64,000 nt of DNA from Candidatus Hydrogenedentota bacterium (GTDB taxonomy: Bacteria; Hydrogenedentota; Hydrogenedentia; Hydrogenedentales; JAGMZX01), in the NCBI GenBank assembly GCA_029556545.1, contig JAKQEQ010000130.1:6411-70410 (forward strand), given 5' to 3'. The notes below the pieces were generated by a model. That model searched no databases and was not told the origin of the DNA. It saw nothing but the letters and a program-made list of their open reading frames with translations. Position 1 is the stretch's first letter; each line of letters opens with the position of its first letter. The position numbers and the translations under genes are program-made. Positions 43,831-46,819 of the stretch are shown piece by piece.

Positions 43831-45150
43831 ATGTCACATCAGGAAACCCATGAAAAACCGCGTCCGTCCCGCCGCGATTTCCTTATCTCGACCGGAGCGT
43901 TGGCCGCGGGGCTTGGCGTGGCGGGCCATGCGCCCGCGCGGGGCGCCGTCGAAAAACTCGCGCTGCACGGGGGCCCGAAAGCGGTGACCGTCCCCGACGG
44001 CGACGCGGCCGCGTGGCCCCGCTACGGCGCGGCCGAGGAGCAGGCCATCCTCGACTTGGTCCGCGCGCCCAGCTACGACCCGATTGGGAAGCTTGAGGAC
44101 GAGTGGAAGGATTTCCTCGGCGTGCCGCACGTGAAGGCCCATTTCAACGGCACCAGCGCGCTCGCGTCCATGTTCTTCGCGCTGAACTTGCCGCCGGGCA
44201 GCGAAATCCTCGTGCCGAGCTACACGTTCTTCGCGACCATCGTGCCCATGCGTCTCTTCGGCCTCGTGCCCGTGTTCGTGGACATCAATCCGCGCACGCT
44301 GAACTTCGACCTCGAGGACGCGAAGAAGCGCCTTACGCCGCGAACCAAGGCCGTGCTGCCCGTGCACTGGATCGGCCTGCCCGCCGACATGGACCACATC
44401 TCGGAGTGGGCGAACGAGAAGGGCCTGATTGTCCTCGAGGACGCGGCACATGCGCACGGCGCGAAGCTGAAGGACAAGTACATGGGCGCGTGGGGCCGCA
44501 TGTCCATCTTCAGCTACCAGATGTCCAAGCCGCTGCCGGCCATCGAGGGCGGCATGGGCGTTTACCAGGACGAGAATGACTTCCAGCGCGCCACGGCCTT
44601 CGGTAATTACGATATGCCGGGGGTGTCGCCCGAGGGCGGCTACTTCAAGTACAAGGGGTCGGGCCTCGGCCTCAAGTTCCGGATGCACCCGTTTGCCGCC
44701 GCGCTCGCGCGCTGCCAGCTCAAGGGACTTGTCGAGCGTAACGAGTCCGGCGCGCAACAGACCCGGCAGCTCAACGACGCGATCCTGCAACTGCCCGGCC
44801 TTTACGAGCAGTCGAGCGGGCGCAAGGACGTGCAGCGCCTGTACTACGCTTGGAACATGCTCTTTATCGACGAGCGGGAGGCGGGCATGTCCCGCGACAA
44901 GGCCGTCGAGGCGCTCAAGGCCGAGGGCGTGCGCGTGAGCTGCACCCACTACACGCTCCAGCACGAACTGCCGCTCTACGCCGAAGACAAGTGGTGGCAC
45001 CACAAGCCGGAAATCCCCGACCTGCCAGGATCGCGCCAGGCCAACGCGACCTGCACGGGACTGCCCTACTTTACGAAGGAGGTCCCGGAACTTGTCGAGC
45101 AATACGTCGCCGCGTTCCGGAAGGTCTGGGCGCATCAGAAGGAATTGTGA
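43831..45150 (+). CDS. Tat-exported DegT/DnrJ/EryC1 PLP aminotransferase
   Basis: A 439-residue sugar-aminotransferase-family protein beginning with a Tat motif (PSRRDFLIS) and a hydrophobic stretch. The PLP-binding Lys233 lies in SYQMSKPLPAIEGG; other fold motifs are AHFNGTSALASMFF, VPSYTFFATIVP and LEDAAHAHGAK. Usual members act in the cytoplasm on keto-sugar nucleotides. A Tat signal implies that this protein is folded with PLP and exported, which changes its likely substrate. ATG 43831 follows AGGAGAACA. It is on its own but close to the surface enzyme cluster; the lower-GC cassette starts 43 bases downstream. Confidence 0.87.
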   Translation: MSHQETHEKPRPSRRDFLISTGALAAGLGVAGHAPARGAVEKLALHGGPKAVTVPDGDAAAWPRYGAAEEQAILDLVRAPSYDPIGKLEDEWKDFLGVPHVKAHFNGTSALASMFFALNLPPGSEILVPSYTFFATIVPMRLFGLVPVFVDINPRTLNFDLEDAKKRLTPRTKAVLPVHWIGLPADMDHISEWANEKGLIVLEDAAHAHGAKLKDKYMGAWGRMSIFSYQMSKPLPAIEGGMGVYQDENDFQRATAFGNYDMPGVSPEGGYFKYKGSGLGLKFRMHPFAAALARCQLKGLVERNESGAQQTRQLNDAILQLPGLYEQSSGRKDVQRLYYAWNMLFIDEREAGMSRDKAVEALKAEGVRVSCTHYTLQHELPLYAEDKWWHHKPEIPDLPGSRQANATCTGLPYFTKEVPELVEQYVAAFRKVWAHQKEL

Positions 45151-45193: not shown

Positions 45194-46174
45194 ATGATGG
45201 CTGGGAAGAGTACGCCCAAGTGCCCAATATGTGACAATTGTGTTCTCGACTACAGGCAGCGGATTGAGAACTTGAACGTAGACTACTTCGATTGTCCTAA
45301 CTGCGGCAGGTACCACGTTGATGATATTACCATAAGGCTCATAGGTAACCTAAACCAGAGAGAGAAGGCCGCGCTCAGTCACGGGATTTGGCGAGGACAG
45401 CACCAAGAACAGCCGTTCGAGGTGGGTTGTCAGCACATTGATGCCGCAAAGAAAGTAGAGCTTCCCGACCCCGCCACGCAGCTTGACCTGCTCATCCTGT
45501 TCCTTGGCCAAAACCAATCCTCAAGCGGTGCACGCGTGGATGTCCCCGTACACTGTCTTTGCGCCAAAATAGGCGCGTCTTCTATCGGTGATGAGATATT
45601 CGTCGTGGATGCAGCCAGCGAAAAAGGGCTCATGTCCGCCCAATGGAGGCCGAAAATACCGCCGATCGTAGCAGATGTGCGCAGTCTCCGCCTCACCCTT
45701 ACCGGCTGGCAACGCTTTCACAAAATCCAGCGCGGTGCGGTGACAAGCCGAACGGCGTTCATGGCTATGCCGTTCAAGAATTCGGAAGTGGAGAAGGTCT
45801 TTGAAGAGGTATTCCGTCCCGCAGTCGCGGAGACGGGATTTGAACTCAAGCCAGTAAATGTGAAGCAGCCGGCGGGCCTCATAGACGACCAAATTCGCGT
45901 CGATATTCGGCTTAGCCGGTTTCTCATCGCCGATTTGACTTGTGATAACCGCGGCGCTTATTGGGAAGCGGGCTACGCGGAGGGTTTGGGCAAGCCGGTG
46001 ATTTACACGTGCAACAAGTACTACTTTGAACATCCAGGCACTCATTTCGACACGAACCACTGCACGACCGTGATTTGGGACCCGGAAGAACCCGAGGAGG
46101 CTGCGGACAAACTGAAAGCCACCATCCGCGCCACACTACCGTTTGAGGCAAGGATGGAGGACGAGTCATCGTGA
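45194..46174 (+). CDS. Zinc-ribbon protein with nucleoside deoxyribosyltransferase-like domain
   Basis: A 326-residue protein with no recognised named family. The N-terminus has a zinc ribbon (C10-x2-C13 with C34-x2-C37). A middle region of about 130 residues is uncharacterised. The C-terminal part (188-310) has the nucleoside 2-deoxyribosyltransferase/TIR-like pattern: FMAMPF (189-194), IRLSRFLIADLT, and YWEAGYAEGLG with candidate catalytic Glu258. This fold cleaves N-glycosidic bonds and occurs in nucleotide-based immune effectors. GC is about 46 percent at 45241-45360 against 63 percent at 44101-44160, suggesting transfer. The stop overlaps the PIN gene start (GTGA). GAGGAT precedes ATG 45194. 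Function is inferred, not known. Confidence 0.7.
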   Translation: MMAGKSTPKCPICDNCVLDYRQRIENLNVDYFDCPNCGRYHVDDITIRLIGNLNQREKAALSHGIWRGQHQEQPFEVGCQHIDAAKKVELPDPATQLDLLILFLGQNQSSSGARVDVPVHCLCAKIGASSIGDEIFVVDAASEKGLMSAQWRPKIPPIVADVRSLRLTLTGWQRFHKIQRGAVTSRTAFMAMPFKNSEVEKVFEEVFRPAVAETGFELKPVNVKQPAGLIDDQIRVDIRLSRFLIADLTCDNRGAYWEAGYAEGLGKPVIYTCNKYYFEHPGTHFDTNHCTTVIWDPEEPEEAADKLKATIRATLPFEARMEDESS

Positions 46175-46641
46175 AGCCACAGTTCATCTACGTGGACGCG
46201 TCGGTGGTCGGGGGCTGCGAGGACGCAGAGTTCGCTGAAGCGAGTCTTGGGCTTTGGGGGCAGTTTATTGCGGGGCGGCATATCATGGTGTTGTCAGACC
46301 ACACATTGCGCGAACTCAGGCCGGCGCCTGAAACGGTAAGACGACACATCTCGGATGTTCCGGAGGAAAACACGCTTGTCTTGTCTGACAGCGGGGAGGC
46401 GTTGGACCTCGCGGACGCATATCTGCGTCGCGGCGTGGTAGGGCGCGGTTCGCATGCCGATGCGCTGCATGTCGCCTTGGCAACGGTGGGACGCGCCGAC
46501 GTACTGGTCAGTTGGAATTTCAGGCATATCGTCAATCTTGGACGAATTCGCTTGTTCAACGCGGTCAATCTCGAAGAAGGGTATGGTACAATCGAAATCC
46601 GTACCCCGATGGAGGTGCTGGCTTATGAAGAAGGACTTTGA
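46171..46641 (+). CDS. PIN-domain ribonuclease-like toxin
   Basis: A 156-residue PIN-fold protein. Candidate metal-binding acids are Asp9 (YVDAS), Glu48 (LRELRP) and Asp97 (SHADALHVALA), followed by VLVSWNFRHIVN. This matches the PIN subgroup usually paired with a very small partner. GTG 46171 overlaps the upstream stop, and the 3' end overlaps the next gene by 17 bases. Such proteins are typically toxins that cut RNA. Here the toxin is also fused by overlap to a deoxyribosyltransferase-like gene upstream, an arrangement I do not recognise. Confidence 0.8.
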   Translation: MKPQFIYVDASVVGGCEDAEFAEASLGLWGQFIAGRHIMVLSDHTLRELRPAPETVRRHISDVPEENTLVLSDSGEALDLADAYLRRGVVGRGSHADALHVALATVGRADVLVSWNFRHIVNLGRIRLFNAVNLEEGYGTIEIRTPMEVLAYEEGL

Positions 46642-46819
46642 CGCTGTCGCGTTCATGCGCAAGAGGCGCGCGGAGATTGATGACGAGGATGCGGGGCTGA
46701 CGTGGGAAGAACGCAGTGTCAAGACCCGCGCGCTGCTCGAGGATGACCCGCTGTGCCTGCGCCTCCGCGAGCGGCATGTACGCGCGGGTGACAGGGGCCA
46801 AGCGCGCGCTACCCGATAG
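46625..46819 (+). CDS. Small antitoxin-like partner of the PIN protein
   Basis: A 64-residue protein. The beginning (KKDFDAVAFMRKRRAEIDDE) and the following LTWEERSV resemble the short proteins found directly after PIN toxins of this subgroup, with the pattern FD-V-MRK-R--I then L--EE. It is highly charged and probably helical, as expected of an antitoxin that covers a toxin active site. ATG 46625 is preceded by GGTGCTGG and lies 17 bases inside the PIN gene. The unusual order is toxin first and antitoxin second. Confidence 0.65.
   Translation: MKKDFDAVAFMRKRRAEIDDEDAGLTWEERSVKTRALLEDDPLCLRLRERHVRAGDRGQARATR

Follow-up and report, generated by a model that had tools for sequence, protein, structure and literature searches.

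A zinc-ribbon/winged-helix/NDT-fold gene overlapping a putative toxin-first PIN pair in Hydrogenedentota: probably two independent units

When three genes overlap head to tail and the first two share a low GC3, do they act together, or have separate units come to lie side by side? The question is raised by a locus in the window, the whole 64,000-nucleotide stretch of DNA from Candidatus Hydrogenedentota bacterium that was analyzed, in which a zinc-ribbon protein with an NDT/TIR-like pattern, a PIN-domain protein, and a small charged protein are encoded in a row. The original prediction, made from the sequence alone, suggested that all three may make up one combined defense or toxin module. We propose instead, with a probability of roughly 0.8, that gene 1 and the PIN/small-gene pair are two independent units whose adjacency arose by chance or under loose selection. 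Genes that overlap and have a similar base composition need not belong to one module, and what appeared to be a new cassette is cleared up. What is left of interest is an uncharacterized, widely spread zinc-ribbon/winged-helix/NDT family, a candidate single-gene effector, together with the pair itself.

Anatomy of the locus

The coordinates of the three genes and their overlaps, 4 bp between genes 1 and 2 and 17 bp between genes 2 and 3, were reproduced as originally described.

45194..46174, + strand: gene 1 (P0001), a zinc ribbon, winged helix, and NDT/DrHyd/TIR-fold protein of 326 aa; based on its homolog family, PF05014, and a structure model
46171..46641, + strand: gene 2 (P0002), a PIN-domain protein (VapC-like) of 156 aa with a GTG start; based on homologs, intact acids, and a Leptospira homolog annotated as VapC
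46625..46819, + strand: gene 3 (P0003), a small charged partner of 64 aa and putative antitoxin; based on its conserved downstream overlap with the PIN gene

Because each has independent homologs, genes 1, 2, and 3 are real genes and not chance frames. The reported local drop in GC was also recovered (0.458 at 45241-45360 versus 0.633 at 44101-44160, with 0.638 for the window), and over whole genes, GC is 0.544 in gene 1 and 0.575 in the PIN gene. The GC3 contrast agrees: values are about 0.63 in genes 1 and 2 versus 0.84 to 0.88 in the flanking metabolic genes, and since their GC3 lies below that of these neighbors, genes 1 and 2 look acquired. There is no defense island around the three genes in the window, where the surroundings are those of carbohydrate metabolism (a rhamnosidase, a GH28 protein, a ceramidase-like protein, a DegT aminotransferase, a TIM-barrel isomerase, and a sodium:solute symporter).

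The PIN pair, with and without gene 1

Two elements of the original prediction stand up well in the PIN pair. The PIN acids that it named, Asp9, Glu48, and Asp97, are present and remain unchanged in every homolog that has a letter at that position, and the small charged partner proves to be a conserved small gene that accompanies PIN in homologous loci. Across the phylum, 33 of 68 genomes contain relatives of P0002, frequently in multiple copies, and PIN and its small partner gene recur as a conserved overlapping pair in more than 20 other loci, as well as in Leptospira plasmids, without gene 1 alongside. In nearly all strong homologs examined, the small gene, which carries an FDxVxxM motif, starts within or just past the end of the PIN gene, usually with an overlap of 7 to 38 bp; no conserved gene lies upstream of PIN among them. 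The exact 17-bp overlap is kept in the closest pairs (L092, L093, L123, L124, and L127), and the Leptospira plasmid pairs overlap by 8 bp, with the first gene annotated as VapC in one of them. The genome under study itself has four more relatives of the P0002 PIN (contigs C134, C39, C182, and C42), with at least two partial copies.

Judged by this anatomy, the PIN gene and the small gene are likely a toxin-antitoxin pair with the toxin gene first, in which the PIN protein would cleave RNA and the small protein would restrain it. The pair is like type II VapBC systems in its PIN fold with D/E/D acids, in its small, adjacent, overlapping, and conserved second gene, and in the VapC annotation of the Leptospira relative of P0002. 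The usual VapBC order, however, places the antitoxin gene upstream of the toxin, whereas here the small gene is downstream of PIN in all pairs seen. Moreover, P0003 is not recognizable as a VapB DNA-binding antitoxin and has no family match in Pfam, NCBIfam, or PADLOC. Reverse gene order is on record for type II systems of Synechocystis (PMC4963859). A search of the literature for a toxin-first PIN pair found no match, as did a search for the PIN in viral contigs. A toxin-first PIN pair this common, with a small partner that fits no family model, is of interest in its own right.

The view of a combined module implies that gene 1 and this pair should travel together, and they do not. Not one of 80 gene 1 homologs across many phyla has a P0002-type PIN beside it, and no sequence like P0002 or P0003 was found in the 89 further loci initially retrieved with P0001. 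Among 139 immediate neighbors of gene 1 homologs, no Pfam family was seen more than twice, and there were two PIN matches, of which the one identified belongs to the VapBC of L080, an ordinary pair of another type and gene order than P0002/P0003. The proposed survey for conserved PIN and small-gene neighbors of gene 1 homologs thus found no such conservation, in practice the outcome that the original prediction named as its own refutation, and nothing indicates a conserved functional link between gene 1 and the PIN pair.

The pair also occurs without gene 1 at the syntenic locus of a congener, G040, where the order is aminotransferase (84% identical), PIN, small gene, and isomerase (78%). The aminotransferase-PIN gap there is about 400 bp, and the only trace of gene 1 detected within it seems to be the last ~18 bp (16 of 18 identical, encoding ENESS-stop); beyond this 3' end, a search for a gene 1 remnant gave a best local score of 11 versus a shuffled mean of 11.6. 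The retained 3' end weakly favors the view that G040 lost gene 1, as opposed to a recent insertion here, and gene 1 and the PIN pair may, on this sequence comparison, have been neighbors since before the two species split. With loss or insertion alike, the pair persisted in G040 without gene 1. The reading frame of the G040 PIN (L152, G040:C78) is shifted right after its GTG start, and the gene looks decayed.

An improbable alternative casts the PIN pair as an addiction module for the retention of gene 1 in the genome, such that the adjacency would be selected even though the proteins do not interact. Differing toxin-antitoxin-type genes do lie near several gene 1 homologs (HicBA in L011, VapBC in L080, and a RelE-like gene in L046, all recognized by eye, and Fic in L022, recognized otherwise), but these come, as a raw count, to no more than roughly 5 loci out of some 80, and G040 kept the pair with gene 1 gone. 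Some link of gene 1 to toxin-antitoxin-type modules of other families is conceivable. A single module, in which gene 1 would deplete nucleotides, PIN would cleave RNA, and the small protein would control PIN, is scarcely credible: the tight overlaps, the common low GC3, and the 3'-end trace of gene 1 adjoining PIN in the congener speak for it, but the trio is conserved in no other genome seen, the PIN pair exists independently, and gene 1 is missing at the congener's locus. With gene 1 and the pair understood as two independent units, the 4-bp overlap between gene 1 and PIN may mean that they are cotranslated here.

Architecture and proposed activity of gene 1

The gene 1 protein divides into the following parts.

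45215..45322, + strand: zinc ribbon, gene 1 residues 8-43; Cys10, Cys13, Cys34, and Cys37 invariant, and structure model
45470..45745, + strand: winged helix-turn-helix, gene 1 residues 93-184, MarR/PadR-like; structure comparison
45743..46141, + strand: catalytic-fold domain, gene 1 residues 184-316, NDT/DNPH1/MilB/TIR fold; structure comparison
45965..45967, + strand: codon of invariant Glu258, matching the catalytic glutamate of the NDT/TIR fold in position; alignment, assigned by motif

Here the earlier reading of a zinc ribbon plus an NDT/TIR-like pattern is confirmed, with invariant cysteines, PF05014 matches, and fold comparison in agreement. The motifs FMAMPF and YWEAGYAEGLG are found in the gene 1 protein, and the invariant residues across 49 aligned homologs comprise Cys10/13/34/37, Gly171, Phe189, Tyr256-Trp257-Glu258-Ala259-Gly260, and Phe285-Asp286. 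Glu258 is equated with the NDT/TIR catalytic glutamate by motif and fold, not by a superposed active site. All 49 aligned members match PF05014 at E≤0.01 (best, 1.2e-7). Structure prediction, which had been suggested as a check, yielded a model (pLDDT 89) that places residues 184-316 in the NDT/DNPH1/TIR fold; in this model, the domain aligns with DNPH1 and NDT at a Z of ~14 and an rmsd of ~2.4 over ~122 residues and also matches the folds of MilB CMP N-glycosidase and TIR domains, and the modeled winged helix reaches a Z of up to 10.6 (best, PefR, with an rmsd of 2.4 over 81 residues). A single-chain sequence search of the PDB gave no match for gene 1 or PIN, and a profile search gave nothing beyond zinc-finger noise.

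Gene 1 is thus like the NDT, DNPH1, and MilB N-glycosidases (PF05014, DrHyd superfamily) in the fold of its catalytic domain and in the invariant Glu of its YWEAGYAEG motif. It differs from them by the addition of a zinc ribbon, a winged helix, and its own conserved HFDTNH motif, and P0001 itself scores under the Pfam gathering cutoff for PF05014 (19.4 versus 28.8 bits). Fold class and conserved glutamate are likewise shared with TIR and TIR-like NADase effectors (SPARTA TIR-APAZ, DUF4062, and CBASS TIR), and 23 of the 49 members weakly match the PADLOC model of a CBASS TIR effector, PDLC00733. Unlike these effectors, gene 1 is accompanied by none of the known partner genes, such as an Argonaute or a cyclase, and its N-terminal domains differ. 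Retron NDT effectors also include an NDT-like enzyme, and genes for winged-helix DNA-binding proteins are likewise found in retron operons (PMC12548924), but no reverse transcriptase was recognized near gene 1 homologs. For the zinc-ribbon/winged-helix/NDT architecture as a whole, no counterpart was found in the literature.

Two assignments to named systems were rejected. CBASS was set aside because no cGAS/DncV-like cyclase adjoins gene 1, whose neighbors in the window belong to sugar metabolism and whose homologs have no recurrent neighbor of that kind. Retrons were set aside too: the [YF]xDD motif occurs three times in loci of the homologs, by eye never in an RT-like context, and there was no reverse transcriptase among the window neighbors scanned.

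Cleavage of the N-glycosidic bond of nucleotides or NAD+ is established for relatives in the NDT/TIR fold class, which is widespread in conflict systems (PMC9503650, PMC13174449). By analogy, we consider gene 1 somewhat more apt to be a nucleotide N-glycosidase than anything else. Its zinc ribbon and winged helix would, as their folds suggest, bind nucleic acid; a nucleic-acid cue sensed by this N-terminal part would then prompt the catalytic domain to cleave a nucleotide, perhaps a (d)NMP or NAD+, at its N-glycosidic bond.

Spread, neighbors, and role of the gene 1 family

A single scan returned no fewer than 80 members of the gene 1 family, drawn from Hydrogenedentota, Planctomycetota, Pseudomonadota, Chlorobiota, and others. 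A full-length copy is present in 6 of the 68 genomes of the phylum, and the congener is without one. The gene 1 tree places the Hydrogenedentota members in a single clade and keeps phyla largely together, apart from a few misplacements. A plasmid search with gene 1 returned distant matches only, and tblastn against a phage collection returned none.

The idea that gene 1 homologs cluster with defense genes holds for a minority, which lie with restriction genes, bSEFIR, or prophage cargo. For instance, homologs lie between hsdS and hsdR of a type I restriction system (L084), after hsdS (L089), near an AAA protein of the HEC-01/OLD type (L085), near DUF499 (L026), and, on a viral contig, beside a DNA methyltransferase (L156); the TPR-S neighbor in L061, the HicBA-like genes in L011, and Fic in L022 belong to this conflict-related minority as well. 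The idea fails for the rest: the majority of homologs sit among housekeeping genes, which weakens the defense reading of gene 1. We put a conflict role for gene 1 at a little short of even odds, in which case the protein is possibly a solitary effector. A bolder proposal, which we hold only tentatively, is that gene 1 founds an undescribed solitary anti-phage family, borne in many phyla by prophages, plasmids, and restriction loci. In its members, detection of nucleic acid by the zinc ribbon and winged helix would activate an N-glycosidase acting on a nucleotide or NAD+.

Possible too, if on balance doubtful, is that gene 1 encodes a housekeeping or regulatory protein, a transcription factor built on the zinc ribbon and winged helix, in which the NDT-fold domain would serve to sense or process a nucleotide. 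The MarR/PadR type of its winged helix, the position of most homologs among metabolic genes (including etfB/etfA, by eye, in several Planctomycetes), and the largely phylum-clustered tree are consistent with such a regulator; the patchy distribution within the phylum, with the congener lacking a copy, the varied neighbors, the prophage and restriction-operon positions, and the low GC3 argue against it.

Several individual loci deserve mention. In four from Planctomycetes (L020, L045, L053, and L054), the gene 1 homolog directly follows an EtfB-like gene, as judged by eye, and in three of these, a short ORF overlaps the homolog by 8 bp and precedes an EtfA-like gene. In 7 of 82 loci, as a raw count (L021, L033, L042, L051, L066, L072, and L078), the homolog is no more than 500 bp away from a tRNA gene; integrated elements often adjoin such genes. 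On a viral contig (L157:63-7682), a homolog is found between integrase and tape-measure/terminase genes, a usual place for prophage cargo. A Leptospira plasmid (L155, 1102-5914) carries a distant gene 1 relative with a bSEFIR protein on one side and, on the other, a large protein that is methyltransferase-like. In L005:1492-3789, the homolog ends a 765-aa open frame, which may be an N-terminal fusion or a mere GC-rich frame. Finally, the homolog in L061:4679-6972 overlaps by 4 bp a gene whose product combines TPR-S and MAP3K-TRAF-binding domains and, at its N terminus, is similar to the gene 1 NDT domain.
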